From Amphibalanus amphitrite (taxonomy: Eukaryota > Arthropoda > Thecostraca > Balanomorpha > Balanidae): a stretch of 64,000 nucleotides of DNA. Location of the stretch: positions 422,926-486,925 of the forward strand of contig NW_024881999.1 of NCBI RefSeq assembly GCF_019059575.1, given 5' to 3'. Positions within the stretch are counted from its first letter, which is position 1. Every line of letters begins with the position of its first letter. Both the position numbers and the translations under genes were made by a program. The notes under the pieces are model-generated. The model was not told the origin of the DNA, ran no database searches, and saw only the letters and a list, made by a program, of their open reading frames with translations. Below are positions 32,502-60,157 of this stretch, piece by piece.

Positions 32502-34143
32502 TTGCAATTCATAGGCGTAGGAACAGGGGGGGCCAGGTGGGCAAGTGCCCACCCACTTTTCGAGGTGGGGGGGCCAACCATGTGTTTTGGCCCACCCACT
32601 TTTTACTTGAGGCCCCTCGTCTCGATTTGAGAGGACGTCGTCACCTTCCAGAATAAACAAACTCGGTAAAAATAAGTTCCACGAATCCCCACGCACGGAC
32701 TCCAAGGGGCCGTGATGGATCCAAGGAGGCCCTCTGTTCATACTTATCAGTCGAAGCCCCTGAGACTGATGGCCTGAGAGGCCCTAGTGGATCTGAGGAG
32801 GCCCCAATATCCACACTGGTCTGGGAGGCCCCTCCATCCACACTAGTCAGAATAGGCCCCTGACACTGGCGGTCTAGCCGAGGCCCCCTACCCTCACTAG
32901 TCAGAGGAGGCCCCTCTATCCTCAATAGTCAGAAGAGGCCCCTGAGACTGATGGTCTGGGAGGCCTATCCATCTACACTGTAGTCAGAGGAGGCCCCTGA
33001 GACTGATGACCTGAGAGGCCCTTATAATCACACCAGGCAGAAGAGGCCCATGATACTGATGGACTGAGAGGCCCTTCTATTCATACTGGCCACAGGAGAC
33101 CCCCAAAACTTTCGGTCTGGGAGGTCCCTCAATCCGGCACCAGTCAGAAGAGTCACCTGAGACTGATGGCCTGGGAAGCCCTTATATTCACACTAGGCAG
33201 AGGAGGCCCCTGAGACTGATGGTATGAGAGGCCCTCATATTCACACCAGTCAGAAGAGGCCCCCGAGGCTGATGGCTGTGAGGCCCTTCTGTTCATATAA
33301 CTGGCCACTGGAGGCCCCTGAAACCGGTGGTCTGGGAGGGCCCTCTATCCACACTAGTCAGAAGAGACCCCTGAGACCGATGGTCTGAGAGGCTCTTATA
33401 TGCATACTGGCCACAAGAGGCCCCTGAGACTGATAGAGAGGTCCACTCGTAATGAATCTGAGGGGGCCCTCTATCCACATTTACACTTTTCTAGGGAGGC
33501 CCCGGGACTGATGGTCTGAGAGGCCCTTTTATTTATACTGTCCACAGGCCCCTGTGGACAGTATAAATAAAAGGGCCCCTGGGCCCCCTGAGATTAATGG
33601 TCTGAGAGGCTCTTCTATTTATACTAACCAGAAGAGGCCCCTAGGATTGATGGTCTAACAGGCCCTTCTACATATTTATACTAGCCAGAGGAGGCCCATG
33701 AGACTGATGGTCTGAGAGGCCCTTCTATTCAAACTAGGCAGATGAGGCCCCTGAGAATGATAGTCCGAAGAGCCATGCGGCGGCAGCTGGCCGTGGCCAT
33801 ATTTCGGCTCGGTAGGGCCCCACAGAGCTCATGAGAGCACCTCAAGGGCTCCTAAGTAGACACGCTTATCCCCATAAGGGTGCCACGCCGGCTTCTGAAG
33901 GCTCCTTGTAGGCATCTAAGGGCCCTTTCCGGCCTCTAACGGCTCCACCCGCCTGTGATGGCTCCACACCAGTGTTTATGAGCGCCACACAGCGGCGCCT
34001 TTGAGGGTCATACTAGTGTCTCTTAGGGCCCTATATCGGTGGCTCTGGGGGCCCCACACCGGCGCCTCTGTGGGTCACCACATTTGTGCATCTCAAGGCT
34101 CTATATGTACAGCCCTCAGCAGACTGCGTGGTAGGTATTCTTT

Positions 34144-35073
34144 CATGGTGTGTCAAAAGTGGAAATAGCCGCCCGGCTTTAGTTCGCCAGCCTTGTCAAT
34201 AGATGGCAGTACCACAATATGGGCAGCGGATCGTGCAATTGACGTCAAATTTTCGTTATCTGCTAAGAATTGAATGGCGAATCTTTTCATGCAAGAATCA
34301 AGTAAATCGGTCCACAACTTTTCTAGCAACAGAGATATGAAGTCAAACACCCTGCCAGAGCGGCGGCGCGGCGGCCGGTGGCAGCCGTTACGCGCCGCCT
34401 GGGAGACAGGCGGCGCTGAACGGTTCCGAATTGGCACTGCACTAAAACCTGTAAACTGCTTGGAATAGTTATTATAGCAAAATTTTTATTCAAGTGAAGA
34501 ATAACCAAGGGCAGGAAGTATGTATGCTTGTGTGCGTACTATGTAAGCCAAGAAACTGCATTAGCAGATACTCGCTAATATTAGATCCAGCCAAGTCCCA
34601 ACGCATTCCAGCTGGTGTGTTTCTGATGGGTCAACAATATTTATCGTTCGAGGGCGGATACAGTTTTAACAATACAAAAAATATTTTTGCACAGCTCTAT
34701 TCCTTGAATAATTCTCTTCAACGCCTCATTCCTAGTTAAGCGAATTAGCCCACCCTGGTTGAATAAATAAGGCGATTTCGCCACAAGGTCGGGGAAAATC
34801 AACCGAAAACGGCCGCGCTCAACGTTAATTTGGGCATGCAGACTCTTAAAAACTCGCATTGGGCGGGCAGTGTTTCCCAGGTATTGGCTCCAAAACACCG
34901 TATTCGGCTCCCGAATACGTCCAAGTGACCCGCCTCGTTCCTAGTTAAGCTCTAATTAGATCAAGTGACTCATAGGGAGCGAAAAAGCGACAAAAAGCAT
35001 GAATTTCCCAATGGCGGCGGGCTGCCGGGTTGCCAGACAGCGCACCGGCTATTTCCACTTTTGACACACCATG
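34144..35073. mobile_element. nested 930-bp inverted-repeat element
   Basis: The ends CATGGTGTGTCAAAAGTGGA.. and ..CCACTTTTGACACACCATG form a 27-bp inverted repeat flanked by TTT (34141-34143, 35074-35076). It sits inside the terminal repeat of the TA-flanked element. A short + frame near 34274-34465 has no recognised motif. A 3-bp duplication would suit PIF/Harbinger, but the assignment is open. Confidence 0.65.
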
Positions 35074-35139
35074 TTTCGACAAAACCGGAACTTACTCAAA
35101 GGCTATGTCAACAGTCGGTCGGAACTCACTTCAAATAGA

Positions 35140-35395
35140 TGTTGCGGGCGCTGAACACACTCAGACTCGATGCTTTACTGTATTATCGGCAGAGGCCCAA
35201 ACAAGAACCACAGAGCCAACCGCTCGTAACCACGGTCTCCCTGCCTCTCCCGGGCCGCCGACCGCCCAGCCAGCGCCAGCCCTCGACCCCGCCCGAGGGC
35301 CACGCGGCAGGGGCGGCGCCGGGCGCGGCCAGCCGGGGAGGCGCCACGGGCGGCGCCAGGCATGCCACAACGGGCGGTCACAGCCGCCCGTAACA
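35140..35395 (-). repeat. LTR of the gypsy element (3' LTR in element sense)
   Basis: 256 bp with short terminal inverted repeat TGTTGCGGGC/GCCCGTAACA. GC-rich interior. Identical by eye to the partner at 40875-41130. Confidence 0.92.
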
Positions 35396-35505
35396 CCCCT
35401 CCCCCCTCACGGAAACAATCATACATTGAACAATGCGACACTTACGACACGCTATTTACATTACAACTATATACACAATCACAGCCTTCACCACCTCCAC
35501 CACAC

Positions 35506-38500
35506 TCATAGTCCCGCCTGGAACCTTTCAGGTGGTCGCGATACTCGGCCTGATCTGGTCACGTATGACATTGGCGGCAACATTCCCCTCTGAGCGACGC
35601 CCACATCACCAGATGGGCCAGCTCTCCCGAGTAAGTGCATTAGCGGCACCTCGAGCAGAACGCCATGCTCGTTACCACAGTCGCTCACGGGATCCACCCC
35701 CACGGCCTCACCACGTCCATTTGGACCACTCGGATCCTGAACTGGCTGCAAGTCGGTCCGACGAGGGATGAACTCCTTGAGGTCGTTGTGGTGCACGACG
35801 CGTGTCTTGCCGCGGACGTCCTGTATCCGGTAGGTAACTTCCTCCCCCGGTGTGCCTCTTCTCTCGACGATGGTCACCGGTCCTTTAAACGGCAGACCCA
35901 GCTTCGGTTTTCCTCCCACAGCGGCAGTGTGGTCTCGTACCCACACCTTCAAGCCCGTTGGGTACGCGGTAAAATTGAGTTTGCTGTCATGGCGAACCGC
36001 CATTCGAGCAGCTGATTGGGAGGAGGCTCTCCTCACCTGTGCGAAGACCCGCTTCATGTTCTTCAGCCGTTTGTTCAGGAAGGTTTCAGCTGGTATTGCG
36101 ACTTCATCGGTTCCGTACATTACATCCAAAGGCAACCGAGGCTCAAAGCCATGGATCATGTAGAAAGGTGTGTGACCGGTGGTTTCGTGGAGGGAAGAAT
36201 TGTAGGCCATGGCGTATGATCTGGTACTTTCGTCCCAGTCAAGGCCCTGGCTGTCGATGTATTTCGACACCATGTCTTTCAGGGTCCTCATGAAGCGCTC
36301 CACCATCCCGTCGCTCTCAGGATGATAAGGCGTTGTTCTAGTCTTGTGGATGCCGAGCCTCTGGTACAGCTCACGCATCATCAGAGATTCGAATTGAGCG
36401 CCCTGATCTGTGTGAAGCCTCTCGGGAACACCAAGCTCCTGAACCCAGTGAAGGAGTACCTCCATCACCGTTTCTGTCTTCTGATTCGGCATCGGGAAGA
36501 TTCGTACGAACTTTGAGAAGTAATCCATGATCACGAGCACATATCGGTTGCCTCTTCTCGACACAGGCATCTCCGTGATGTCCATGGCTATTCTCTGGAA
36601 GGGTCGTGAGGTAACCTCGGTAACCATCGGTGCTCGTCTTTTGGGTGCCGGTCTGTACCGCCGCTGACACGGCGTGCACGAGGCACAGAAGCTCCGGATG
36701 TCCTCATTCATCCCCGGCCAGACGAATCGAGCCTTCACCCGGGCGATGGTCCGTCTGCGACCCATGTGCCCGCTCGATGGATCATCATGCGCCAGTCGGA
36801 TGATCTCGGCCCGTTCAGTTTGAGGCACCGCCGCCTGGAACTGTCGACCCGAGGCAATGCCGATTACTCCATTCATGACGCGCACCTTGCTCCAGTGTTT
36901 TCGCAGCACTCCCCACCCAGCGAACGCTGCAGGCCTTGGCTTCTCCTTCCTCTCGTGTGCTCTTCGGAGAGCCGACAGCGTCGCGTCACTGGCTTGCGCC
37001 TGGGCGATTGGAGGGAGGGTCCGTTCTTGGACTGATTGTGACACAGCGACTGATACAGCAGCCGGTTCCTGCGTAAGCCTTGAGAATACAGCAGTTGGAG
37101 CTACAAGAGTCACAACCGACTCAGGCGAACCGCCTTCCGTCGGCGCGGGCGAGCCGCCCGCTACTGACCCCACCGTCTCCGTTCTATCTCCTCTCTCTGA
37201 GACAGAGCGACCGGGACACCACCCCTGGCCTTGGGCTTGACCAGATCGGACCGCAGACGCCATATCTGGTGGTCTGCGAGACAGCGCATCAGCGTTCCCG
37301 TGGGCCAGACCGCTGCGGATCCGAACATTGAAGTCGAAAGAACTCAGCTCGATCGCCCATCGACCACGACGTCCTGTGCCGTCTCGCTCTGCTGCGATCG
37401 ATGTCGGTATGTTTGCCAGCGGCTTGTGGTCGGTCACCACTTCAAATCTGGCACCAACAGTGTACTGACGGAAATGTCTGATGCCATGAACGATCGCCCA
37501 GAGTTCCTTATCGTAAGTCGGCCATCTCGTCTGCTGCTTTGTGAGTGCCTTACTCTCATAGGCGATCACCTTTTCCTCATCTCCAATGCGTTCAGCCAGC
37601 ACCACACCCACGGCAGAGTTGCATGCGTCTGTATACAGGACGAACGTCCCTTCACCTGTTGGCAAAGCCAGTACGGGAGGCGAGGACAGAGTGGACTTCA
37701 ACAGCTCGAATGCAATGCGCATCGGTTCGGACCACCTGATTCGTCCCTCCTCTACTGCGGCGTCCCTAAGTGGCTTTGTAATCGCGGCATACCCCTGAAT
37801 AAACCGCGCGTAGTACCCGCACAGGCCTAAGAAGCTTTTCATCTCCTCCTCAGATGACGGCTGCGGCCAGGCCAGGACCTTGTCCACGTTATGCGGATCT
37901 GGACGTATCCCTTCCTCGGAGACGAGATGTCCAAGGAAAGTCACCTCCTTGCGTGCGAATCGACATTTCTGTGCCTTTAGCTTCAGCCCGGCTTGCTGAA
38001 TCCTCAGGAGTACCTCCTGCAGGGTAGCCAGATGTTCTTCCTCGGTCCTGTTGAACAAGATGACGTCATCCAAGTACACCAAACAGCTTTTGGTGTCAAG
38101 GCCTGCGAGAATCAGTTCCATCGTCTTCTGGAAAGTGCCGCTGGCGTTCTTGAGACCCATTGCCATGACTCTGAACTGATGGAGGCCTTTTCCAGTCGAA
38201 AATGCCGTCTTCTCTCGATCTTCAGCCGCCAGTTCAACCTGCCAATACCCTGTGGCCATGTCCAGCGTGGTAAACCACCTCGCCCTTGACAGGGTATCGA
38301 GCGAGTCGTCGATTCGTGGGAGCGGCATGGCGAAGCCCTTCGTCACTGCGTTCACAGCCCTCAGGTCGACGCAGAAGCGGAAGGATCCATCTTTCTTGCG
38401 CACCAACACGACCGGCGAACACCACGGACTTTCGCTTTCCTCAATGACACCATCCTGTAACATCTTTTCTTTTTGTTTCTCTACCTGGTCTCGGACTTTC

Positions 38501-39531
38501 ATGGGTATCCGTCGTGGACGTTGTTTGACTGGGACTGCATCCCCCGTGTCAATCCTGTGTTTTGTCACACCTGTACGACCAATGTCTCCCGGTCTTTTAC
38601 TGAAGACGTCACTGTAGGTCTCAAATAAACCCCGTAGTTTGTTACGACCTCTCTCACTCAAGTCTGTCAGTTCTGGTGACAGGGCTTGCTGCACCTCCGG
38701 TTCCACCTCTCCAGGATCATGAGATGGATTACCTCCATCTCCACAGCTCGCCACATTGCAATCGGCACAGTCTGCCCCGGGACACAAAACACACAGGGCG
38801 TCTTCACCGCCCCCAAACGCAAGGAACGTCCCGACATCAGAGCCCTTCAAGAGACGGACGCCCTCCGCTCCGACATTCGTCAACCGGATAGGTATGGTGC
38901 CATTGGAGGCGATCACCACCACAGCCCGTGGAATCAATAGATCCTCACGCTCCGCCGTGCGGCTTGGCTCCATCATCCCACTTACCGAGCCTGCTGACGT
39001 CACAAAAGGTCCCTGGCCATCAAGTCGCTGCACCACTGCTGCTACCGTTGTTACCGAACGACCTGGTAGTGTTACTGCATCGCCAAGAATGACTCTAGCC
39101 CGCGGGGGACGGATCTCAGGGTATGTTGGAAGTGGAATCGTCATCCCTTTCATACGGATCACCCCCTTCTCATCGTCAATGATAGTTCTGTTTTGGCAAC
39201 AGAAGTCACGTCCAAGGATCACGTCATAGACCAGCCCCGACACCACAGCCAGTCGTGGACACACAATCGACTCCTCCTCCACCTGGATAGGGACATCACG
39301 GAGCACCTCAACGATGTTCAGGGGGCTACCACCAGCTCCCTTCGCGGACCGCGTCGGGGTGGTGGCCTGACAAGCCAGTTCCGTTTTCAACCGCTGCTGG
39401 AGCCCATCCCTGACCATGGAAAAGTCGGCACCCGAATCGACCAGCGCCCATACTTCGAGGCTGCCCAAGTGGACTCGAATGGCTGTTGCAGTTAATCGGG
39501 ACTGGATACACGCAGCCGGCTCTTGTCCCAC
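35506..39531 (-). CDS. pol: gypsy pol polyprotein
   Basis: About 1341 residues. Domains in order: aspartic protease (LVDSGAD at about 30-36), reverse transcriptase (about 330-510, FTTLDMATGYWQVEL, catalytic YLDDV near 486), RNase H (YTDAC near 632, ADALSRR near 755), integrase zinc finger (HMGRRR..CASCTPC near 920), integrase core (MDITEM near 984, HTDQGAQFES near 1044, ESDGMVERF near 1072) and a GPY/F-like tail. Typical Metaviridae order (integrase after RNase H). It is in a different frame from gag, as in relatives that use ribosomal frameshifting. It copies the element's RNA into DNA and inserts it. Open throughout. Confidence 0.95.
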   Translation of the reverse strand: MGQEPAACIQSRLTATAIRVHLGSLEVWALVDSGADFSMVRDGLQQRLKTELACQATTPTRSAKGAGGSPLNIVEVLRDVPIQVEEESIVCPRLAVVSGLVYDVILGRDFCCQNRTIIDDEKGVIRMKGMTIPLPTYPEIRPPRARVILGDAVTLPGRSVTTVAAVVQRLDGQGPFVTSAGSVSGMMEPSRTAEREDLLIPRAVVVIASNGTIPIRLTNVGAEGVRLLKGSDVGTFLAFGGGEDALCVLCPGADCADCNVASCGDGGNPSHDPGEVEPEVQQALSPELTDLSERGRNKLRGLFETYSDVFSKRPGDIGRTGVTKHRIDTGDAVPVKQRPRRIPMKVRDQVEKQKEKMLQDGVIEESESPWCSPVVLVRKKDGSFRFCVDLRAVNAVTKGFAMPLPRIDDSLDTLSRARWFTTLDMATGYWQVELAAEDREKTAFSTGKGLHQFRVMAMGLKNASGTFQKTMELILAGLDTKSCLVYLDDVILFNRTEEEHLATLQEVLLRIQQAGLKLKAQKCRFARKEVTFLGHLVSEEGIRPDPHNVDKVLAWPQPSSEEEMKSFLGLCGYYARFIQGYAAITKPLRDAAVEEGRIRWSEPMRIAFELLKSTLSSPPVLALPTGEGTFVLYTDACNSAVGVVLAERIGDEEKVIAYESKALTKQQTRWPTYDKELWAIVHGIRHFRQYTVGARFEVVTDHKPLANIPTSIAAERDGTGRRGRWAIELSSFDFNVRIRSGLAHGNADALSRRPPDMASAVRSGQAQGQGWCPGRSVSERGDRTETVGSVAGGSPAPTEGGSPESVVTLVAPTAVFSRLTQEPAAVSVAVSQSVQERTLPPIAQAQASDATLSALRRAHERKEKPRPAAFAGWGVLRKHWSKVRVMNGVIGIASGRQFQAAVPQTERAEIIRLAHDDPSSGHMGRRRTIARVKARFVWPGMNEDIRSFCASCTPCQRRYRPAPKRRAPMVTEVTSRPFQRIAMDITEMPVSRRGNRYVLVIMDYFSKFVRIFPMPNQKTETVMEVLLHWVQELGVPERLHTDQGAQFESLMMRELYQRLGIHKTRTTPYHPESDGMVERFMRTLKDMVSKYIDSQGLDWDESTRSYAMAYNSSLHETTGHTPFYMIHGFEPRLPLDVMYGTDEVAIPAETFLNKRLKNMKRVFAQVRRASSQSAARMAVRHDSKLNFTAYPTGLKVWVRDHTAAVGGKPKLGLPFKGPVTIVERRGTPGEEVTYRIQDVRGKTRVVHHNDLKEFIPRRTDLQPVQDPSGPNGRGEAVGVDPVSDCGNEHGVLLEVPLMHLLGRAGPSGDVGVAQRGMLPPMSYVTRSGRVSRPPERFQAGL

Positions 39532-39545
39532 AGGGCCAGCTGCCC

Positions 39546-40646
39546 CTAGTTTTCCGCCGGCTTATCAGATGGAAGGGCTTCCCTCGACATCAGCCCCCGA
39601 CGTCCACCCATTGCTGGAGGCCCCTGCTGCAGGCGAGAATGGCATGCCGCCATCCAGTGCCCAGCCTCGCCACAGAATAAACAAAACGGTTGGAGCGGGG
39701 TGGCAGCTTGTACAGCCGACTGACAGTTGCTCCGAATGTGACCCTCCTGCCCGCACGAAAAACATTTCACCCTGGTGGCTCTCGGTCCAGTTCTCGGCTG
39801 ACCACGGCGTACCACCGGGCAGTCACGCCGAAAATGGCCGGGGGCACCACACCCGTAACATTTGACAGCCTCAGGCAGGTGGTCCGTCTTGGCAACGGCG
39901 AACGCCTCCAACGAAGACCGCAGCTGGCCGATCTCCTGCTGCAGCTGAGCTATCCTTGCATCCTGCTGCGACCCACCTCCTACCTCTGCATGAACAGCTG
40001 ACGCTACAGCACCCAGGGGAAGGGGCCCAGTACCTGTATGCGTCGATGGGTTAGCAGCGCGTACCGCCTGGACGACCTCCTGGCGTTTATGCAGCTCTCG
40101 GATCACCGCTACAGCCGCAGACAGTGACTCAGGATTACGGTGGCACAGTTTCGTCTGGAGCCACTCATCCCGAAGTCCACATATGAACCGACTCGTCAGG
40201 GTTTTCATCACGAACGCCCTCTCTGCATACGTTTCCTCAGGACCTTTTCCCTCCCCTGACGGACCGGTAGAATGAGGGAACGCAGCCCGCCCCAGTCTCT
40301 TAATACGGTCAGCGAAGCTCTCAGCTGATTCCCCCGGCGACTGGGAGGCGCGCCCCAGCTCGGCCTGCGCCTGTAAGGGCTCGATTAACCGACCAAACCG
40401 GACCCCAAGTCCTGACTTTATCTCAGAGTACGAACTGTCACCCTGATACAGCGAATGCGCATAATCGAGTGCGACGCCATCCAGCAGAGGCAACAGCCGC
40501 TTAACTCGCTCAACGTCTCCGAGTCCCACCGTTAACGACTCGAAACGAGATATCCACCGCTCCCAATCATCTGTCTCTACACCCGCAAAACGAGGGGTTC
40601 GCGATACCAAAATAGTGTCGTTGAAATCCATGGCCAGCGGAAACAA
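39546..40646 (-). CDS. gag: gypsy gag polyprotein
   Basis: About 366 residues. The N-terminal two thirds looks like a retrotransposon capsid region (FESLTVGLGDVERVKRLLPL; a Gag_p24/UBN2-like helical segment). Towards the C-terminus are three CCHC zinc knuckles (CYGCGAPGHFRRDC near 260, CFSCGQEGHIRSNC near 292, CLFCGEAGHWMAAC near 320), which bind the element RNA. It lies directly upstream of pol. Role: particle formation and RNA packaging. Confidence 0.93.
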   Translation of the reverse strand: MFPLAMDFNDTILVSRTPRFAGVETDDWERWISRFESLTVGLGDVERVKRLLPLLDGVALDYAHSLYQGDSSYSEIKSGLGVRFGRLIEPLQAQAELGRASQSPGESAESFADRIKRLGRAAFPHSTGPSGEGKGPEETYAERAFVMKTLTSRFICGLRDEWLQTKLCHRNPESLSAAVAVIRELHKRQEVVQAVRAANPSTHTGTGPLPLGAVASAVHAEVGGGSQQDARIAQLQQEIGQLRSSLEAFAVAKTDHLPEAVKCYGCGAPGHFRRDCPVVRRGQPRTGPRATRVKCFSCGQEGHIRSNCQSAVQAATPLQPFCLFCGEAGHWMAACHSRLQQGPPAMGGRRGLMSREALPSDKPAEN

Positions 40647-40874
40647 TTCACCAAATTATTCAAAACTGCACCCAGGCGGACCGCCTTATTCCTAACGTTC
40701 CCCTCAGAACAGAAAATATCGGCGTTCTATTTCCGAGCAAACCGCCCGCTTTTTGTCGAGCACCGACTAGTTACGATAATCAACATTCATGAACTAAATT
40801 TCAATAAATATCATCAAATGAAATTAATGAACTCACCCTTTGTCGTCTTCTGCAGTCCTACCGACCGCGCCAAA

Positions 40875-41130
40875 TGTTGCGGGCGCTGAACACACTCAGA
40901 CTCGATGCTTTACTGTATTATCGGCAGAGGCCCAAACAAGAACCACAGAGCCAACCGCTCGTAACCACGGTCTCCCTGCCTCTCCCGGGCCGCCGACCGC
41001 CCAGCCAGCGCCAGCCCTCGACCCCGCCCGAGGGCCACGCGGCAGGGGCGGCGCCGGGCGCGGCCAGCCGGGGAGGCGCCACGGGCGGCGCCAGGCATGC
41101 CACAACGGGCGGTCACAGCCGCCCGTAACA
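40875..41130 (-). repeat. LTR of the gypsy element (5' LTR in element sense)
   Basis: 256 bp, same as 35140-35395. Followed on the minus strand by the primer-binding site. Expected to carry the element promoter. Confidence 0.92.
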
Positions 41131-42570
41131 TAGATGCGCCATGCTCCACTCCTTCGATTGGGTCTATCACTTAACAAAATATACGGCTTGTGTGGCAACA
41201 AAATGCAAAAGTTTGTTTTTGGGGCAAATATAAACTTTTGGGTTTTGTTGCCAAACTGGATAGAAAATGAACACGATGATAATGCCAATCTAAGGTGCGG
41301 TGTCTCGCGCGTCTTGCTGTTACGATTTTCGAGTGACCGATATCATAGTATTCGCGTTATTCTCGGTTTTGTCGGAAACAGAATACCTACCACGCAGTTT
41401 GCAGAGGGCTGTACATCTGAAGGACCCACACCGACACCTCTAAGGGGCCCCACACCAGTATCTCGGAGCTCTGAAGGCCCCACACCGGTGACTCTGAGGA
41501 CTCACCGGCTCCTCAGAGCACCATGTTGATGTCTAACGGCTCCACAAGGCCACTGAAGGCACCACACAAACTCTCACTGAGCTCTAATGTCCATGTACCG
41601 GCCTCTGAGGGATTTAAGCCAGCGCATTCATAGCTCCACTCCAGCAATTGTAAGGGCTTCACACTGAAGTATCTGAGGGTTCCACACCGGTGTCTCTAAG
41701 GGCCACATACCGGCATCTCTGAGGGCCCCAGACCGGCGTCTCCGAGGGTCCACATCTGGCGGGCACCCATCAGCGACTGAAGGTCCCACACTGTCGACTC
41801 CGAGAGCCCCATCTGCGTCTGGGAGCACCATGCCGTCTCTAAGAACCACAGCGGCTCCTCCGTACGAAAGATGGGCGCCTGCATGCCAAAGGGGAGCGGT
41901 TCTGAGACAGTAGGGCACCTACGTGCAATAGAGGGGCGCCTATGAAGCCCATAGGGGCGCCTCAATGTGAAAGAGGGGCGCCTCTGAGGCCTACATATAT
42001 GGGCGTCCACATGAGATAGAGGTCTGCAAATTGCAATTGATCAATGCCATGGGGGTGCATTCAAAAGAAACAGGGGCGCCGGCATGGCAAAGAGAGGCGC
42101 CTTCAAGTGTCCATAAAAGAGAGACGCCTATGATAAGCGCACATTGTATGCGACAACGGGGCGACTGTGGGACATATAGGGATGTCTCTGATGACTATAG
42201 GCACATAGGGCGCTTATATGCCAAAGAGGGCGCCTATGAAGCTAATGGGGGCACCTGGGAAACGAGGAAGACATTTGTGTAAGGGTTTTCAGGGGTCATG
42301 CGCCGTTTGCGGCAAATAGATTCTAAAAAAAAAAATCGGAGGGGGGAAGAAGTTTTAAAAATGGTGCGGACTTTCCGCACTGTTCGCTTTAGCGGTTACG
42401 CCCCTGGGTACATCTGCCCGATCTCAGAAGCTAGATTTGGAGGTCATACTTGAAAGCAGCCAGCAGAATGAGGCAAAAGTTGGAGGCCCCTGAAAATAGG
42501 AGGCCCCCTGGAAAAGGAGGCCCCTTGACAGGGTGGCCCACCCACTTTTCATGACGTTCCTACGCCCATG

Positions 42571-44781
42571 AAGACAAGGAAGCGTCTTACATGTTGAAGC
42601 TTTACGAGGCTGAAGGGCCGATGACTGATGGCTGATAACTGTTCGTCACACCCAGCGGCTGGGGCACCCAAATGTAACTAGTGATGTGTCAGATGTAGTA
42701 CTGCAGGTCAAAGGCAGATCGAGGAACCGCGCTGGGCCCCAGGTTAATCTCTACGTGTTCTCCACATATGGTCCACACATGGTCGTGTTTTCCTTTATGC
42801 TAACATCATGATTCATGCTATCTGATGAGGCCTGTGCCTGTCCCTAACAAGCAAGTCGTTACAGGTCGGCTGATCGTCTCAGCTCCAGGCCGATGTCTGA
42901 TCACTGTAACATCCTCAGGCCCCGATGTCATGCCCTTTCTAGACGAGCAGCACCACGGGGGTACCTCGAGCATAATTGGTACTGGACGCGCCGCGGAGGA
43001 GCCCCGGTGCCACGTCACCGTCCTGCCACGTGAGGTCGGAGCTGTGGGCTGCAGGGCGCTGCAGGTTTGGTCAGCAGGACTCCGGCGTGGCCTGTCACGG
43101 TATAATGTAGATATATGGCCGGTGCCTGGCACAGGGCCGCCCCTCCGAGCGATGGTAGACGGTCGGAACGGCGCGGTGGAACGGAGCTTCAGGGCGCCAG
43201 ATTCGTGATCCAGACGGTGAACGGTACGGCGGGTGAGGTATATCAGATAGCTGTGACCATTTTGGGATGGGTACAGACTGCAGGTAACATAAGCTCAATT
43301 AGCTGCATCACAAATAAGTCTTTTTCAGTTTCCGGGCTAAGCTAGAGTTGTTTTAACGAGCAAATATTCCCGAGTATCGACGGTGTCGAATGTGTAAATA
43401 TTGATTGAAGTATCACTTTAATGACTATTAGAAGGGACTGGAATGTAATTAAATTGCTATAGAAGTGCGTGGGTTGACCTCAGTTTATACGTAAAGCGCA
43501 TCCCTCGGACTCCCCCATTCATTAACGCCTCTGCATTTGTATGGTATCAGGTTCATTCAGCATCGCATTTTCTCTCTAAATAGCACACTGACTTTGTCAC
43601 GCCACGTACTTCGGGGAAGACCGCTGCCGATGCTACAGCGCTCATTTCCTCGACACGCCTGTAATAATACTCCGCGGGCGTCTCTTATTACGGCGTCGTG
43701 ATTGCTCTGGCTGATGTTTCACCCAATCATTCACTGACGTCAGCTTTATTACCGGCGCATGCGGGGACAGAGAAAGCCGTCTAATTGGATCTTTGTCACT
43801 ATCACCTCACTCTGGCTGGAGATTAGCTGGTGCAACTCCGTCCTGTGACGCCACGATTCGGCCCATGTCCAATTTGACTCGAGGGTACAGACTTGCCACA
43901 CCGTGGACGGTACCCTTACCGTCAGGGCGGCAGTGTTTTGTAATGGGTTGCGCTGAGACCCAGCCAGCAACCGACCTGCGTGTCTCGTGTGCACCCACAG
44001 CTCCTGGCGACACTTTCGGGAGTCTTACCGCTCCTTTCTTTGAGACCTGTCCACAGAGCTGAATCCTGAAAGGCCGCATCATGATGTCCTAAATTGGCAG
44101 CATCTGAACGTTGCCGACCCACCGGAGCCGCGCACTTCCTCCTTGTGCAAGAGAGGGAGAGAAAGCTGCTGCAAGACGGTGAGGGGCGGCGGTCTGCAGT
44201 GACCGGTCCGGGGCAGGGCACGACCATCTCCAGCGCCGACCCGGCACCTGCCCCGCACACCGGACCGGTGAAACCGACGGCGAAAGGCGGCGCTGCGCCA
44301 TGAAACGGCGCACCACGGCGAAAGCGCCGCGCCGCAGACGCACCGCACGGCTCGCTGCAGAATCTGCCGTGCAGGCTTGTCCTCCGAGAGAAGATTTATC
44401 AGCGTTGATCAACCCTACGGAATAACATATCCTATTTCTCTCTGAATCCATCAGGTCTCGTCTACCTACTGTAATTTCCGTTGACGTCACCACCAAACAC
44501 AAGAGAACACTGCACCTAATCTTACGACGGTAGCTCACCTTTCGACTCATCACATAACAATTTTTTCTTTTGCTTGTGGAAAACAACGTCATGATAAAGT
44601 TATTGGTCCACCAATTCATTCTGTAGTTGTTTTGTATTGAACATACATCAGTGCAGCTGTGTAGCCTGTGTTATTCTACTTTTTTATGTGTGTCATGCGG
44701 AGACGAAGTCCATTATAATTTACGTATTCCAATACGTGTTCGTACCTGACTTTTTTAACCAGCGCTCATCACCTTTCTAGG
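42571..44781. other. passenger DNA between the hAT-like copies, no gene seen
   Basis: Mixed unique sequence. GC-rich patches at 42840-43200 and 43790-44350 carry open frames on both strands without recognisable domains or coherent splicing. It may be captured host DNA. Confidence 0.3.
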
Positions 44782-44969: not shown

Positions 44970-45953
44970 GTGCCCGTTATTATTTTAGTCGGTAGCTCCG
45001 CTCTTGCCGAGGAATACCTTATCTGTGCCCGGAGCTGCTGATGCAAGTTTCTGACGAAACCCAGCTAATCGACCGTCTGAGGAGCATTACCAGGCTCTCA
45101 AGCTGCTCCGATCGAGTCCAATAACTCCAATCTCTTCTCGGGTGGCTGCGATCCAGTCGGAGCACTTGTCTGAGATTGAGCTAGGCTATCGCTACCTCAG
45201 GTCGTGCCGTGCTTATTGTTCAGGCTTAGCTCGTGAACCAGCTCCGTCCCGAATTGGCTCAACTTCGGAGCCAGTTGCGTGCTGTTTTAGCTCAACATTA
45301 CCTCGGGAGCAGGGAGCCACCTCCGTCCCGTGCTGGCTCAGCTCTGAAGCTGGCTTCGTCCCCTATGCATTGGCTCAGCTCGGGAGCCAGTTCCGTCCCC
45401 GACGACTGGTGCGGTGAACGGCCCCATTAGAGATGCAGATTGATGTAGGAATGCGGTGGGGTCCGGCTCTTGGCGCTGACGAGGATCCCATGGCTCGAGC
45501 CGGGGCGGTTGGGTGGGCGAACCGGACTGCAGTGGGCAAAGGAAACGTTCCGCTGTCTCCATTCCACCGTCTCACCGGCGGGACCGGGACTGCGGGTGTC
45601 TTCAGGCATCCCTGGTCGCCTCTGAAGTACATGCTTACATATGTGCTCACAATTAAACGGTATTCGGCGTCAGTATTAAAGTTTCACATGACCCTGTTCA
45701 GTTAGCTGTTTTTCAGGATTATCAGCTCACACTTTTCCTATCTGTTGAATCTTTTATATGTAACTAGAAGACGGTACGTTTGGAAATAATAGAACCATTA
45801 TAATAGAGGAATTATCTTACTCCGACTTTGTGCGTCTTTTTAAACATTAGCTTTGCGTCTGACTTACAGGCAAAAATAATTCAAAATAATGAACAAAAAT
45901 AGATGAACAAAAATAATTCATCGCCGGCCGTTATATGCCCTCGGAAAGATCCA
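44970..45953. other. passenger DNA, no gene seen
   Basis: 45225-45420 contains irregular repeats of CAGCTC..GAGCCAGTTCCGTCCC-type words (about four). Otherwise no gene or element was recognised. Confidence 0.3.
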
Positions 45954-46258
45954 CACTGAAAACAATTTAACCCAAGGCTGGCGAGTAAACCGGTGTTTTA
46001 CGGGTACCCCTATCCGCAACCATTTTTGACCACCCTCCCAGGAGTAGTGCTAGGTTAGGTCCCATTGCGGTGTAGTCGTACTTGCTCTGAGCGGATATAA
46101 CCGCTGTCAGCGAACAAGTCTGCTGAGAGCAGGGGCGATTACACTGCAATGGGACCTTACTGTACTCTTGGGAGGGTGCAGGTTAAAAATGGTTGCGGAT
46201 AGGGGTACCTGCAAAACACCGGTTTACTCGCGGGCCTTGGGTTAAATTGTTTTCAGTG
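45954..46258. mobile_element. MITE with ~110-bp inverted repeats
   Basis: The termini CACTGAAAACAATTTAACCC and GGGTTAAATTGTTTTCAGTG are perfect inverted repeats. Pairing continues inward (ACCGGTGTTTT/AAAACACCGGT, ACCCCTATCCGCAACC/GGTTGCGGATAGGGGT, GGTCCCATTGC/GCAATGGGACC), so most of the element folds on itself. No convincing target duplication. Confidence 0.75.
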
Positions 46259-46632
46259 CAGATTCTAGATGTTCACAGTTGACGTGACTCGCACCCCAGG
46301 GAGTGTCGTATCATGACAATGACTGATGACATCACGCTCAGCCATCAACTCATCAAATTAATCACTGGTCTGGTTTCTTGGGTGCGTCATGACTCACGAG
46401 TATGTGCAGTGTGCAATTTTATTTATCATACAGTACCCGAGTATTCTGTTTCCGTCGTCTGTTGAGACAGGCTTTGTCTTCAGGTAACCGCGAACGCATG
46501 ATCGTCTGCAGGGCTGATGCCTGGTTAACTTAAACTTTGCCAAGCATTAGCACTTTTAACACATAAAAAATCAGCATTAGGTACTGAGTACATTGAAACC
46601 TCACCGTTCCGAAAGTCTAGACAGTGCCGTCT
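46259..46632. other. passenger DNA, no gene seen
   Basis: Ordinary sequence between two transposons. Nothing recognised. Confidence 0.3.
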
Positions 46633-46640
46633 GTATACAC

Positions 46641-48547
46641 CAGGGGCGTAGGCAGGGGGGGGGCCACTGGGCCATGGCCCCCCCCCTTGGGCGCCGAAGG
46701 CGCCCTTTGCGATTGGAGGGCGCCGAAGGCGCCCTCCAATCGCGAATGCAATTGTGATAGAATCGAATCGAAAAACAATCGCGACTGGATACGTAAGCCT
46801 ATAGGATCGCTGCCTTCCTGCCCACTGGTGCCCTCATTTGATCGGTGTACTCCTACCTATTGGTGCTCTCCTGTAAATAGGCGCCCTCTCACCCGAAGGC
46901 GCCCTCCTGTAGGTCGCCACCCTGCTACACATTGCTACCATTCTGCTGGTCGGCGCCCTCATAATTATTGGCGCCCTCCTATCTATTGCGCCCTCATGTG
47001 AAATTTTTATGGCCGCCCTCCTCCCTTTTGGCACCCTCTTGTTGAGTGCCGCCCTTCTAGCCATTGGCGCCCTCCTACCTATTGGTTTCCTAGTCCCTCC
47101 TGTTGAATGCTAATCGGGGCCCTTCTACCTATTGGCGCCCTCGTGTTGATCGCCGCCCTCCTAACCACTGGCGCCCTCCTGTTGATCGCCGCCCTCCTAT
47201 CCACTGGCACCTTCCTGTTAAATCGGCGCCCTCCTCACAGACGCCCTCCTGTTCAATGTCATCCTCGGGCAAAGGCGCCCTCCTCACCATTGCCACCCTC
47301 CTGTTAATCGTCACCCTTCCACTCATTGGCGACTTCCTGTTGATGACCGCCCTCCTACCCATTGGCGACCTCTTGTTGATCGCCACCTTCCTATCTATTG
47401 GTGCTCTCCTGTTCCTTGCCGCCCTCTCACCCATGGTGGCACCCTCCTGTTGATTGTTGATCGGAGCCTTCTTACCTATTGGCGCCCCCCTTTTGATCGT
47501 CGCCCTTCTACCCATCGGCGTCCAAGTTTCGGTGATTGAAGGTGCTCAACACTGTATGCATCTGTGAGAAGGAAATTAGGGCTGGTCGAGGTAATTTGGA
47601 TGAGAAGCCCTAGAAGACTAATCGATCTCATGAGGAACAGCCCTGTTATGGTTTCTCTTTCTGTTGTTGCCGCCTTCTCGTTGTGCGCTTGTGTTTACGC
47701 ACCTCGCGCTCCGGTATCAATCCGATAAGTGGTGATCTGGTGTCGGTGTGTATGCCACCGCCAATAACCTTTTCTAAATTTCTACATCGTCACCCATGGG
47801 CGAAGCTTTCTATACAGCTTGTGTGGCATCGACCCCACCAAACCTTAGGTATTTTTTACACCTTCAAATTTGGTAAAAGAGCGGGAAGAGCTTTGAACAG
47901 TGAGCACGCAAAAGATGTGCCTAAAAAGCGGAGGAAAAGGTTGTTTTCAAAAATTTCGCGCGCCTTCGGCGCAGCATTTCACAAACTCTTCTTTACTAGC
48001 AACTTAGTACCTATGCCAATAACCTGCAACCTTTTTGTCACGTGTGAGATGAACCCGCGCCAGGAGGTTTCTTCAGACATGCGGTTAAAAAAGATCCGAA
48101 AAAGGTGCCACTACGTTACGAGCTTCCGTTTTTTTCCCTGGGGGAGAGAGGGAAGTGGGTGAGCGAGAGGGGCACACCTTTTGGTACATTGCTCTTACAC
48201 GTGCTCTAAAAATGCAAACCACAGTCGCTAAAAGCAAGGTAATCAGGTCATGTCAAGTGCTCTAACTTAAAAAAGTTTTAAGCATTGTCACTTAAGCTGA
48301 GCGGGTGACTTGACCTTTTTTGGCCTGGAGTAAAAACAAAATACACACGATGCCAAATCAATGCAGCATAACCTACCATACCAAGTCACGCAAAAAAAAA
48401 CTGGTGGCGTGGTAAAAAAAAAACGCCTCCACCCCCCCCCCCGCTGAGCGGATTTTTATCTCGCGACCGTATGGCGCCCTCCTGGGGTGAGGTGGCGCCC
48501 TCCAAACCCTTGGCCCCCCCCTTCGCGATTTTCTAAATACGCCGCTG
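46641..48547. mobile_element. repeat-bodied hAT-like element, 1.9 kb
   Basis: The ends CAGGGGCGTAGGCAGG and (AT)ACGCCGCTG are flanked by an exact 8-bp duplication GTATACAC (46633-46640, 48548-48555). Inside the left end is a G-run, CCACTGGGCCATGG and a C-run, then a GCGCCGAAGGCGCCC palindrome (46695-46735). 46840-47520 is a degenerate tandem array of GGCGCCCTCCT(A/G)-(CC/TT)TATTGG-type units. A minus frame (47515-47129) is simply the translated repeat (RRAPI words). The element has no transposase. It lies inside the 8.9-kb passenger. Confidence 0.82.
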
Positions 48548-48555
48548 GTATACAC

Positions 48556-49387
48556 TAAAAACAAACGGTATTATCTGACGGAAGCCTCTTGAACTGACTG
48601 CCTACATGTGTGATGTGTCAAGAAACAAAGCACGACCCTGGATTCGGCGTCAAGTTATCACTGAGTAGGTACGCGTTACGGCACGCCCAAATCACGTTAC
48701 GGCTCGTCTGAATCACGTCACGACGTGTTATGGCACGTCCCCAGCCACTGAGCCGCGGCGGCGCGGGCGCCACTTCCTTGTTTGACGACTGACCTCAGCC
48801 GTGCAGTTGGGCGAGATCGGCGTCTGTGTACTGTTTGCTAGCTGTGTGCTGACTACTGCCTGTGGTAGGCACGACGCTTAGACACCAAGATACTGCGGTG
48901 GCGATCGGGGAGTTGTTTGTACGGCCGCAACTCGACCCTCCGGCCGCGCTGTGCTGAGGCTGGCTGAGCGAGGCGGTAGAGCGAGATGCAACACAGCGGT
49001 CCGGACGGCAGCGAGGGCTGTTTGTGGGAGAGCTGAGGGCGTGGTGCGGAAGTGGGGGCTGGTCCAGTGCACGTATGGGCGTGGCGGTAAACACTGGTCG
49101 ATCTATGTGGAGGAGATCAGGTGCATTTGATAATGAATTGTGAAGGTACGGCCCTCCAGCAAAAGAGTGGTTGTTTAGCCTATGTGCTTTTGGTGTAATA
49201 ACTTTGAATGACAGAGACACTCCTGTAATATGACTCAATAGAAATGAGAAGAGGGTTCGTGCACACACTTCGGCAATGGTTTTCAACAGCCATTAGACGT
49301 ATTCGTCAATGCAGATCGCTTATTGTGATGTTGGCAACCAACCAGCCCGGCGGCCGCTGGGCCTCCGCGCCACACGCCGGCCGCTGG
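48556..49387. other. passenger DNA, no gene seen
   Basis: Repeated ATCACGTNACGGC/ACGGCACG words near 48670-48740. GTACGGCCCTCCAG at 49146-49159 is matched inverted at 49958-49971 across the TTAA element end. Confidence 0.3.
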
Positions 49388-49946
49388 GGGGGGGGGGCAT
49401 ATAGTTGCCCCCCCCCCTTTACCTCCGCGGCGATATCGTCGCAACGCGAAGAGATAGAGAAGCGAAACTTCGCACACATCTTCCTGAATACCTAGCCGAG
49501 GTTGTGTCCAAATTTGGTGTCGATCCCATTTGAAATGACGTCACAGTGACGTCATAAGTCAAATTATAGATTTGCGACTCTCAGTTTCCTCACGATACAT
49601 CAGGTATATAGGACCGAACATAAAGGGCCGATTATTGGTTAGGAACTAGATGGAAGTGTACTTAGATGTTTTAGGATGACAGCAGGTGCTGTCTAGTTCA
49701 TTTACAGTTGAGTTTCATGCTCAGCGTCATCAGAAACGGTCCATATTGGAAAACGACAAAACTTTATGACGTCACTGTGACGTCATCTTAGATGCTACAA
49801 CCACCAAACTTTCTTCAAACATTGCCTAGGTATTCATTTGAAGCTATGCCAAGTTTCACGTTCGTAGCTCATCAGGTTTCGGAGATATTCCACAAAACGT
49901 AAAGGGGGGGGGCAACTTTATGCCCCCCCCCCCAGCGGCTCGTGGG
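49388..49946. mobile_element. TTAA-family element, right end intact, left end unclear
   Basis: The right end CCCAGCGGCTCGTGGG is followed by TTAA (49947-49950). Hairpins of G-run and C-run lie at 49388-49421 (loop CATATAGTTG) and 49904-49933 (loop CAACTTTATG, the inverse of the first). Both hairpins and the CCGCTGGG words fit the family, but no TTAA was found at the left. The body contains TGACGTCA repeats. Confidence 0.6.
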
Positions 49947-49950
49947 TTAA

Positions 49951-51171
49951 TTAATACCTGGAGGGCCGTACATAAGCCTTGGCGAATCAAGGTAAACGGT
50001 ATGCGACGTTTCTAAGAACGTAATCCCGAGGATGGAAACCAAATTCCATAAGGTCGTCGATGTTCACTTGCTGCGAGGGACATATAGCTTATGTTTTATG
50101 CAAGTAAAATGGACTTGATAGGCAAAATTGGGAGGCGGCAGGCGATTGGTTATTCCGCTGCGCTGCTCCCGAAATCCACTGACGCCAGTAACCGTACTTA
50201 TAAATGTCGAAATCCGTTGTTCGTCCGAGAAGCAATCCTTAAACAAAGGTCACACAACATGATTTATGTGATCTGACTGGCCTTCTGGAACATTACGGCA
50301 CTCTTCCAATAAGGAGCCTATCGGTGACAACTCGGCATGGCACGGGTCCCCATATGGTAACAGTATGCGTGCCTACTGCGCAGTTACGGAGCACGGAAAC
50401 CTTTCACCTGCGCCTCGCGCTTCTTCTCCATATGGGCAGACGACGAGCGCCGCGCACTGCGAGGCCGGGGTGCTGGGTTTGGTTGACGGGGCCCGCCTCC
50501 TGGGCTATCGGTGGTCCACATCCCCTCCTCTCCCCCCCGCACACACACAGACAGCAGCGGTCCGGGACGGACGTTGCGCCATGGTACGCCATTTCCGCCC
50601 GTCGCCGATCGTTACCTGGTCCTAGGGGACCCGAGCCGGCGTCGCCTCCGCCGTATCGCCCCGTCTCGGCGACGGGGACGATACACAGATGGCGGCGGAT
50701 AGCCGAGGCGCCTCGGCACCCGGCATGAGTCATAGCCACCAGGCGTCCGGCGAGATTCCTCAGCACGAACAAAGAAAGACGAGCCGGCACCGTCCGAGCG
50801 CAGAGCCACCTAGCACGGCAGCGTGGCGTCAGAGCTTGTGTCTGCACCACCAGAGTGGAACGATAAATCCCCCATAAATCTAAGCCTTGATAAATCTTTG
50901 TTACTGAAAGTATACCTCATGTGTAGTTCTGTAAGTAATGGGTATAGGTAAACCTACTATAGGTATTATTACCGCGCCCGCGAACCTCGCGTCTATAACT
51001 AGGTTTAGTTTATCTTTACGCTTAGTAACATGACATGGCTGTTTTTTCTCAGCCTATCTCTTACTTTCACTAGTTTTCCTTTGCATATTCTATTCACGAA
51101 ATCACATTTGCTTCACAGCAAGAACTCACGGGATAAGTAGCCCTGTAACTTGGTGTGTGCATTTCAAGTAC
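49951..51171. other. passenger DNA, no gene seen
   Basis: 50330-50880 is GC-rich with open frames on both strands and could be a promoter or exon. No domain or splice-consistent structure was recognised. Confidence 0.25.
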
Positions 51172-51294
51172 TGCGGTACAGCATATCTTCAGGCGTTCGA
51201 CGCCCCTGCCATCTAGTGAGAGAAGCGCGAACAAGTCCGTCTGTCGTGCGGTGCAGCCTATCTCCAGGCGTTTATACTAGTGCCACCTAGTGGC
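51172..51294 (-). promoter_or_regulatory. inverted tandem pair of CTCF-like-core modules
   Basis: On the minus strand, two modules (51220-51172 and 51294-51247) read TCACTAGATGGCAG and CCACTAGGTGGCAC, then AACGCCTG(A/G)AGATA, then GCTGTACCGCA or GCTGCACCGCA. This is the same two-part layout as 5447-5556. The pair lies about 200 bp left of hAT-like copy 2. Confidence 0.45.
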
Positions 51295-51504
51295 AGAGCT
51301 GTACACGATCACGCGGCGGGGCTGAGCCGTGCCTCGGACCACAGTTCGCTACAAGATTCTTTCAGAAGTTTGTGATACGTTTTCTGCTTTCGCCCTTGAT
51401 ATATTTTCGGTCACATGACTCAGCTATTCTATCATCAGGATAAACTGGTCATTTCATGAAGTCTCTCTCTCTGGCTTTCTCAGGCTAGCGTAGGAGGTAC
51501 TGGA

Positions 51505-54420
51505 CATAGGCGTAGGAACAGGGGGGGCCAGGTGGGCAAGTGCCCACCCACTTTTCGAGGTGGGGGGGCCAACCATGTGTTTTGGCCCACCCACTTTTTA
51601 CGCGAGGCCCCTCGTCTCGATTTGAGAGGACGGACGTCGTCGCCTTGCAGAATAAACAAACTCGGTAAAAATAAGTTCCACGAATCCCCACGCACGGACT
51701 CCAAGGGGCCGTGATGGATCCAAGGACTGGCCCTCTGTTCATACTTGTCAGTCGAAGCCCCTGAGAATGATGGCCTGAGAGGTCCTAGTGGATCTGAGGA
51801 GGCCCCAATATCCACACTGGTCTGGGGAGGCCCCTGACACTGGCGGCCTGGGAGGCCCCTCTATCCACACTATAGTCAGAGGTCTGAGACTGGTGGTCTG
51901 GGAGGCCCCTCCATCCACACTAGTCAGAATAAGCCCCTGACACTGGCGGTCTAGCCGAGGCCCCCTACCCTCACTAGTCAGAGGAGGCCCCTCTATCCTC
52001 AATAGTCAGAAGAGGCCCCTGAGACTGATGGTCTGGGAGGCCTATCCATCTACACTGTAGTCAGAGGAGGCCCCTGAGACTGATGACCTGAGAGGCCCTT
52101 ATCATCACACCAGGCAGAAGAGGCCCATGAGACTGATGGACTGAGAGGCCCTTCTATTCATACTGGCCACAGGAGACCCCCAAAACTTTCGGTCTGGGAG
52201 GTTCCTCAATCCGGCACCAGTCAGAAGAGTCCCCTGAGACTGGGAGGCCCCTGCGACTGATGGTATGAGAGGCCCTCATATTCACACCAGTCAGAAGAGG
52301 CCTCCGAGGCTGATGCCTGTGAGGCCCTTCTGTTCATATAACTGGCCACTGGAGGCCCCTGAAACAGGTGGTCTGGGAGGGCCCTCTATACACACTAGTC
52401 ACTAGTCAGAAGAGGCCCCTGAGACCGATGATCTGAGAGGCTCTTATATTCATACTGGCCACAAGAGGCCCCTGAGACTGATAGCCAGAGAGGTCCACTC
52501 CTAATGAATCAGAGGGGGGCCTCTATCCACATTTACACTTTTCTAGGGAGGCCCCTGAGACCGATGGTCTGAGAGGCTCTTATATTCATACTGGCCACAA
52601 GAGGCCCCTGAGATTGATAGTCAGAGAGGTCCACTCCTAATGAATCTGAGGGGGGGCCTCTATCCACATTTACACTTTTCTAGGGAGGCCCCCGAGACTG
52701 ATGGTCTGAGAGGCCCTTTTATTTATACTGTCCACAGGAGCCCCTGAGATTAATGGTCTGAGAGGCTTTTCTATTTATACTAACTAGAGGAGACCCCTAG
52801 GATTGATGGTCTAACAGGCCCTTCTATTTATACTAGCCAGAGGAGGCCCATGAAACTGATGGTCTCTGAGAGGCCCTTCTATTCAAACTAGGCAGATGAG
52901 GCCCCTGAGAATGATAGTCCGAAGAACCATGCGCGGCAACTGGCCGTGGCCATATTTCGGCTCGGTAGGGCCCCACAGAGCTCATGAGAGCACCTCAAGG
53001 GCTCCTAAGTAGACACGCTTATCCCCATAACGGTGCCACACCGGCTTCTGAAGGCTCCTTGCAGGCATCTAAGGGCCCTTTCCGTCCTCTAACGGCTCCA
53101 CCCGCCTGTGATGGCTCCACACCAGTGTTTATGAGCGCCACACAGCGGCGCCTTTGAGGGTCATACTAGTGTCTCTTAGGGCCCTATATCGGTGGCTCTG
53201 GGGACCCCACCCGGCGCCTCTGTGGGCCACCACACCTGTGCATCTCAATTCTCAAGGCTCTATAGGTACATCTGAAGGACCCACACCGACACCTCTGAGG
53301 GCCCCACACCAGTATCTCGGAGCTCTGAAGGCCCCACACCGGTGACTCTGAGGACTCACCGGCTCCTGATAGCACCATGTTGATGTCTAACGGCTCCACA
53401 AGGCCACTGAAGGCACCACACAAGCTCTCACTGAGCTCTAATGTCCATGTACCGGCCTCTGAGGGATTTAAGCCAGCGCATTCATAGCTCTACACCAGTA
53501 ATTGTAAGGGCTTCACACTGAAGTATCTGAGGGTTCCACACCGGTGTCTCTAAGGGCCACATACCGGCATCTCTGAGGGCCCCATACCGGCGTCTCCAAG
53601 GGTCCACATCCGGCGGGCACCCATCAGCGACTGAAGGTCCCACACTGTCTACTCCGAGAGCCCCATCTGCGTCTGGGAGCACCATGCCGTCTTTAAGAAC
53701 CACAGCGGCTCCTCCGTACGAAAGATGGGCGTCTGCATGCCAAAGGGGAGCGGTTCTGAGACAGTAGGGAAACCTACGTGCAATAGAGGGGCGCCTATGA
53801 AGCCCATAGGGGCGCCTCAATGCGAAAGAGGGGCGCCTCTGAGGCCTACATATATGGGCGTCCACATGCAATAGAGGTCTGCAGACTGCAATTGATCAAT
53901 GCCATGGGGGTGCATTCATAAGAAACAGGGGCGCCGGCATGGCAAAGAGAGGCGCCTTCAAGTGTCCATAAAAGAGAGACGCCTATATGATAAGCGCACA
54001 TTGTATGCGACAACGGGGAGACTGTGGCACATATAGGGATGTCTCTGATGACTATACATAGGGCGCTTATATGCCAAAGAGGGCGCCTATGAAGCTAATG
54101 GGGGCACCTGGGAAACGAAGAAGACATTTGTGTAAGGGTTTTCAGGGGTCATGCGCCGTTTGCGGCCAATAGATTCTAAAAAAAAATCGGAGGGGGAATA
54201 AGTTTTAAAAAATGGTGCGGACTTTCTGCACTGTTCGCTTAAGCGGTTACGCCCCTGGGTACATCTGCCCGATCTGAGAAGCTAGATTTGGATGTCATAC
54301 TTGAAAGCAGCCAGCAGGACGAGGCAAAAGTTGGAGGCCCCTGAAAATAGGAGGCCCCTGGAAAAGGAGGCCCCTTGACAGGGTGGCCCACCCACTTTTC
54401 ATGACGTTCCTACGCCCGTG
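51505..54420 (+). mobile_element. repeat-bodied hAT-like element, copy 2 (uninterrupted)
   Basis: Termini CATAGGCGTAGGAAC and GTTCCTACGCCCGTG, with the same three tandem-repeat blocks as copy 1: ~60-bp GAGGCCCCTGAGACTGATGG units (51730-52920), GGGCCCCACACCGG-type units (52970-53630) and GGGGCGCC-type units (53780-54090). It differs from copy 1 by scattered substitutions and by gain or loss of repeat units (for example an extra unit group at 52555-52690). It shows the empty site of the insertion at 34108 in copy 1. No transposase. Followed by TTGCAATT. Confidence 0.75.
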
Positions 54421-54428
54421 TTGCAATT

Positions 54429-60095: not shown

Positions 60096-60157
<62 letters not shown>

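Follow-up and report, generated by a model that had tools for sequence, protein, structure and literature searches.

A composite insertion in Amphibalanus amphitrite: probable joint transposition of two gene-less elements with the chromosomal DNA between them

How do two copies of a transposon without genes of its own come to share a single target-site duplication across 8.9 kb of chromosomal DNA? The question is raised by a locus on contig C502 of Amphibalanus amphitrite (NW_024881999.1), analysed in a window of 64,000 nucleotides (the whole stretch, C502:422926-486925) and against a genome of 807.55 Mb in 2,644 contigs. Two copies of one element (E), here called E1 and E2, lie in the same direction and the 8-bp sequence TTGCAATT adjoins both of their outer ends. 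The inner flanks, AAGACAAG and GTACTGGA, differ, and an 8-bp target duplication is present at the outer ends only. A first-pass annotation, made from the sequence alone, had described this arrangement and a passenger of about 8.9 kb between the copies, and both descriptions are borne out. The most probable explanation, to which we assign a probability of roughly 0.8, is macrotransposition, in which E1, the passenger and E2 would have moved together by their outer ends.

THE COMPOSITE AND ITS SECOND COPY

The features of the composite are as follows, in window coordinates.

32502-32509, unstranded: left copy of the outer target-site duplication (TTGCAATT), also present on contig C530
32510-34109, plus strand: left part of E1, subfamily B-like, with terminus CATAGGCGTAGGAACAGGGG
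34110-41412 (approximate, 7.3 kb), unstranded: nest in E1, missing at the matching position of E2
35140-41130, minus strand: Ty3-type long terminal repeat (LTR) retrotransposon within the nest; its empty site was read on C530
41413-42570, plus strand: right part of E1, ending GACGTTCCTACGCCCATG
42571-42578, unstranded: inner flank AAGACAAG, the target of E1 in the donor locus, uninterrupted in contig C1050
42571-51504, unstranded: passenger (chromosomal DNA, 8,934 bp), in collinear order with C1050 and, from 42796 on, contig C870, insertions on either side aside
45954-46258, unstranded: inverted-repeat MITE (miniature inverted-repeat transposable element) of 305 bp in the passenger, not in C1050 or C870
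46641-48547, unstranded: element of 1,907 bp in the passenger with CAG...CTG termini and the 8-bp duplication GTATACAC, not in C1050 or C870
49147-49975, unstranded: inverted-repeat element of 829 bp in the passenger (no duplication read), not in C1050 or C870
51497-51504, unstranded: inner flank GTACTGGA, the target of E2 in the donor locus, uninterrupted in C1050 and C870
51505-54420, plus strand: E2, full length at 2,916 bp, subfamily A
54421-54428, unstranded: right copy of the outer target-site duplication (TTGCAATT), also present on C530

E1 extends from 32510 to 42570 with its nest included and is 96.2% identical to E2 over 2,707 aligned bases. With the nest excluded, neither copy contains an open reading frame of at least 150 amino acids. 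Further occurrences of TTGCAATT in the window are found at 4254 and, inside E1, at 42031.

Contig C530 holds the identical composite, with the left flank (686 bp compared), E1, the passenger, E2, the right flank and all four 8-bp flanks. Its passenger was read except for about 1.9 kb (window 48100-50015), where the spacing agrees. The two composites differ by few substitutions and indels and by the Ty3 element, which is missing from C530 and leaves a clean empty site there. The composite on C530 is about 15.9 kb long, and 21.9 kb, which the first-pass annotation had taken for the size of the mobile unit, is its present size on C502 only. Because the Ty3 element is missing from C530, the unit that moved can have been no longer than about 15.9 kb. 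The presence of the Ty3 element on C502 but not on C530 marks it as a very recent, polymorphic insertion.

THE ELEMENT FAMILY AND ITS TARGET SITES

E belongs to a large family. When the first 1.2 kb of E2 were compared with the genome, all of the best 40 of 1,105 candidates matched at 90% identity or more, and a pattern for the family terminus occurs 958 times (484 + 474) in the 807.55 Mb, a count that includes duplicate haplotype contigs, with no occurrence of the reversed control. Of twenty copies fetched, 18 could be read at both ends; L019, which lacks its left end, and L027, where the contig ends, were left unscored. Seventeen of these 18, representing 15 different sites, have matching 8-bp flanks; only E2 of the composite itself, as it stands on C530, does not. 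The family therefore makes 8-bp duplications, and the outer pair of TTGCAATT is the trace of one insertion event.

The hAT-like label of the first-pass annotation is not supported by this duplication, whose length fits hAT and P-type elements alike, P elements also making 8-bp duplications according to an excerpt of a report on Anopheles (PMC1562414). The family ends are CAT...RTG, unlike the CAG...CTG of the element at 46641-48547. Termini resembling CAG...CTG and a target preference of nTnnnnAn are characteristic of hAT elements. The 94 distinct target sites collected for the family are only weakly enriched in A/T, and T at position 2 with A at position 7 occurs in 8 of them.

These 94 sites come from the upstream flanks of family members at 100 of 727 matches. 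No 8-mer is common to two of the 94, so target preference fails to explain the outer match; TTGCAATT, AAGACAAG and GTACTGGA are all absent from this set. At the base composition found here, the chance that two random 8-mers coincide is p = 1.5e-5. If placement were random, about 7 same-direction pairs within 12 kb would be expected genome-wide, and about 1e-4 such pairs with equal outer 8-mers by chance, the latter figure being rough as the 958 termini include duplicate haplotype contigs.

Two close same-direction pairs, found among 100 of the 958 places, served as controls. The pair on contig C27 consists of elements of 240 and 238 bp with two separate duplications. In the pair on contig C29 (L047 and L048; C29:147900-155500) the copies are 4.2 kb apart and have the same duplication, CATTCTAT, within the same 12-bp flanks; this is a local duplication of an element plus its flanks.

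The family falls into two subfamilies separated by 20 fixed differences (seven A-type against eight B-type loci, from the 20 copies fetched). E1 is of type B at all 19 diagnostic sites scored, the remaining one falling in a gap, and E2 is of type A at 20 of 20. The diagnostic sites span element positions 98-2789, leaving the first 97 bp and the last ~127 bp uninformative. E1 and E2 are thus pure copies of different subfamilies, and no chimerism is visible over positions 98-2789.

THE DONOR LOCUS OF THE PASSENGER

The first-pass annotation had suggested looking for a donor locus, and one was found. The first 4 kb of the passenger gave long matches, besides C502 and C530, on C1050 (pieces of 91, 85 and 77%) and C870 (pieces of 80-88%) among the best 40 of 656 candidates. 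Both contigs are collinear with the passenger up to its very end, C1050 with an insertion of its own of about 1.8 kb. C1050 is unbroken across both AAGACAAG, on the left side, and GTACTGGA, on the right, and has no element in either place. C870 runs unbroken through GTACTGGA, without E2, into a right neighbour (Y) that it has in common with C1050; on its left side another insertion, of about 3.8 kb, replaces 42571-42795. The passenger thus ends, on both sides, exactly at the sites that E1 and E2 occupy in the composite and that are uninterrupted in the donor locus.

The left neighbour (X) is present at length only in C1050 and C870 when all 25 candidates are scored, its other matches being 25 short repeat hits. 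At a distance of 43 kb beyond X, C1050 has a 1.5-kb stretch whose only other full-length 100% match, among the best 40 of 259 candidates, is in C870. An earlier query for this collinearity (L042) was a high-copy repeat and uninformative, and a 3.5-kb stretch of C870 chosen by guesswork had no match; the question was settled by L043. On account of the shared X and Y and of the 100% stretch 43 kb away, C1050 and C870 are most simply read as two alleles of one locus. The heterozygosity of the pair would then be strongly patchy, with 5.6% difference in the passenger region and 100% identity over the 1.5 kb.

Over 3,734 columns the passenger differs from C1050 by 6.3% and from C870 by 6.0%, and the two contigs differ from each other by 5.6%. 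Since these three distances are nearly equal, the same locus would seem to have a third allele, represented by the passenger, which alone has the three insertions listed above. For the element at 46641-48547, C870 has a closely matching empty site. A divergent relative of E beside the passenger in C870 was considered and rejected, as the weak similarity (mostly 70-76%) comes from G/C-rich repeats of the other insertion; the family terminus is absent from the part fetched, which lacks ~350 bp next to X.

E2 differs by 0.55% from the majority sequence of subfamily A and other A copies by 0.1-0.41%. The outlier is L012 (2.34%), a copy with an insertion in it whose alignment is probably poor. Set against the ~6% between the alleles of the donor locus, E2 seems young, and so therefore does the joint move that followed, an order of events suggested by these distances. 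E1 is 3.3% from the subfamily A majority and has 60 private sites, of which 23 lie in one repeat stretch (1054-1123) that is apparently misaligned. The age of E1 is therefore uncertain, as it belongs to the other subfamily and its private sites lie partly in this stretch.

HOW THE COMPOSITE AROSE

Macrotransposition would account for these observations in a short series of steps. Separate insertions would first have placed E1 and E2 in a single haplotype of the C1050/C870 locus, 8.9 kb from each other and with the same orientation. A transposase supplied from elsewhere would then have brought together E1's left end and E2's right end and passed over the two inner ends. The unit of E1, passenger and E2, ~15.9 kb or less, would have been cut out, presumably by a cut-and-paste step, and inserted at TTGCAATT in the C502/C530 locus with duplication of 8 bp. 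Insertion of the Ty3 element into E1 would have followed, in only one of the two haplotypes. It is somewhat probable, further, that this is an animal macrotransposition with its source in view, in which one haplotype of a very variable locus, along with three further insertions, was moved to a second locus by two elements that have no transposase and used their outer ends despite having complete inner ones.

Transposition by the outer ends is favoured over recombination into a resident element because E1 and E2 are unmixed. The likeliest rival is ectopic gap repair or template switching, where an E copy would have been resident at TTGCAATT and a break in it repaired by copying E1, passenger and E2 from the donor haplotype. 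This predicts the same four flanks, and Tan et al. 2021 (PMC8277862) chiefly explain single-copy animal Pack-TIRs (TIR, terminal inverted repeat) in this way. Gap repair also predicts chimeric copies, whereas E1 is B-type and E2 A-type throughout the testable length. At most, the resident could have supplied E1 up to position 97 or E2 over its final ~127 bp, an estimated 8% or so of the element assuming uniformly distributed exchange points, and gap repair is accordingly regarded as unlikely.

Circle integration, the alternative offered in the first-pass annotation, is highly improbable. Recombination between E1 and E2 would have freed a circle of one E and the passenger, which then recombined into a resident E. 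The observed flanks are predicted here too, but a second exchange is needed, and chimeric copies are again expected unless the exchanges fell within the tips (97 bp at the left end, ~127 bp at the right); no chimeras are visible.

False joins in assemblies usually fall in repeats, and a join between two element copies would be a case of this kind. An assembly error as the origin of the composite is nevertheless very unlikely, because the composite recurs on C530 part by part, the four 8-bp flanks included, and the version there lacks the Ty3 element and has minor differences peculiar to it. Collapse of the two copies is likewise unlikely, since they differ by 3.8% and only one has the 7.3-kb nest. 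Two independent insertions with equal outer 8 bp can be dismissed: close same-direction pairs are indeed expected with 958 termini, the C27 pair being such a case, but only ~1e-4 matching pairs are expected genome-wide, the exact coincidence of both passenger ends with empty target sites in the C1050/C870 locus would be left unexplained, and the donor-locus junctions contradict it.

Several points weigh against macrotransposition. We infer, and do not see, the transposase that acted. No E-free allele at TTGCAATT was seen, C502 and C530 both carrying the composite, and no dedicated search for one was completed. Exchange confined to the tips of the element (the first 97 bp or after position 2789) is compatible with the diagnostic sites. 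C870 is silent on AAGACAAG, because the other insertion stands there, and the left junction comes from C1050 only. Most of the best 40 of 656 passenger matches are the 305-bp MITE alone, so that a further copy of the passenger with a weak match could have escaped notice. C1050 and C870 differ by 5.6% in the passenger and yet are identical 43 kb away, and that they are alleles is itself inferred. No donor scar, X joined to Y without the passenger, was found via the search with X, Y not having been searched genome-wide; if the passenger came from a third allele, a scar is not required in this individual. The movement of the two copies as a unit, as the first-pass annotation had it, thus emerges as the best-supported reading through the second contig, the donor locus and the pure subfamily types, with tip-confined exchange still fitting the data.

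COMPARISON WITH KNOWN SYSTEMS

Macrotransposition is a process of a known kind, well known in maize, and only sparsely documented in animals; the papers found on it, judging from titles and abstract openings, are mostly about plants, and those on animals concern Anopheles P elements, Drosophila Galileo and the medaka element Teratorn. The Ac/Ds macrotransposons of maize, which are hAT elements, resemble the present case in having two elements around host DNA, outer ends that move the whole and an 8-bp duplication. Excision of a 28-kb macrotransposon and a reinsertion of 10.3 kb are reported there (PMC9910405), and up to 100 kb have been mobilized (PMC3260210). As described in these reports, Ac/Ds has a known transposase and was followed in maize genetics, whereas the present host is an animal and the event is read from sequence only.

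The first-pass annotation had held such composites to be rarely documented in animals. This has to be tempered, as Drosophila Ising elements and hundreds of Pack-TIRs are published, although they differ in anatomy. The survey of Pack-TIRs gives 370 in animals, 208 of them hAT, with inserts of 100-5,000 bp, and reports that no more were found at a 10-kb limit in humans (PMC8277862). Like the passenger, the inserts of Pack-TIRs are host sequence with a parental copy elsewhere, lying between two TIR elements of one kind. For these the survey, in the part cited, infers mainly gap filling inside one element, whereas here both elements are full length, the inner ends are intact and the copies are unmixed. 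The passenger, 8,934 bp between two complete elements, lies outside the survey's range of insert lengths.

Ising is likewise a composite animal element that moves DNA between two transposon copies, but as described it is framed by foldback elements and is hundreds of kb long, unlike the present case (PMC6431247). The logic applied to the Galileo inversions of Drosophila was similar: chimeric copies there pointed to ectopic recombination and against transposition, and the product was an inversion (PMC2775673). For a tandem of P elements in Anopheles transposition en bloc has been suggested (PMC1562414); in the present case the passenger and the donor locus are seen as well. Judging from the excerpts concerned, the report on Anopheles P elements suggests the process, and those on Galileo and on medaka Teratorn only cite a maize paper about it. 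The present composite is a new, unusually complete and well-resolved animal case with its donor locus.

The locus offers a concrete route by which chromosomal DNA of an animal may be copied between loci via gene-less elements, with the target, the donor locus, both inner target sites and the unmixed copies all in view. If the route is general, close same-direction pairs of high-copy gene-less elements (~7 expected here within 12 kb) would be standing vehicles for spreading host DNA in animal genomes, and would escape surveys limited to 5 kb. A search beyond 5 kb for same-direction pairs with shared outer duplications would gauge their frequency. Most single-copy animal cases have been assigned to gap repair, according to the part of Tan et al. 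2021 that treats them, and the chimerism test can be applied to other genomes to separate the two routes.

OTHER FEATURES

The element that forms the nest in E1 has inverted CAG...CTG termini and a TA duplication, and contains a further inverted-repeat stretch besides the Ty3 retrotransposon. The latter is 5,991 bp long with identical 257-bp repeats, a TAGA duplication and long open gag and pol frames. Elsewhere in the window, a long open frame with a polyglutamine tract (59187-60428) has no Pfam match at E 0.01 and is possibly an exon of a host gene.

The terminus pattern was also compared with sequences from outside the animal genome. It had no match in viral contigs. A single match in archaeal DNA (contig L001) falls within a long coding frame and was put down to chance. 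Within the family, the 9-mer GGTTACTGG precedes 5 of 100 left ends (C4:382821, C13:1182409, C13:1221197, C20:127965 and C20:300126), and its recurrence suggests an E copy lying within another repeat that has itself been multiplied.

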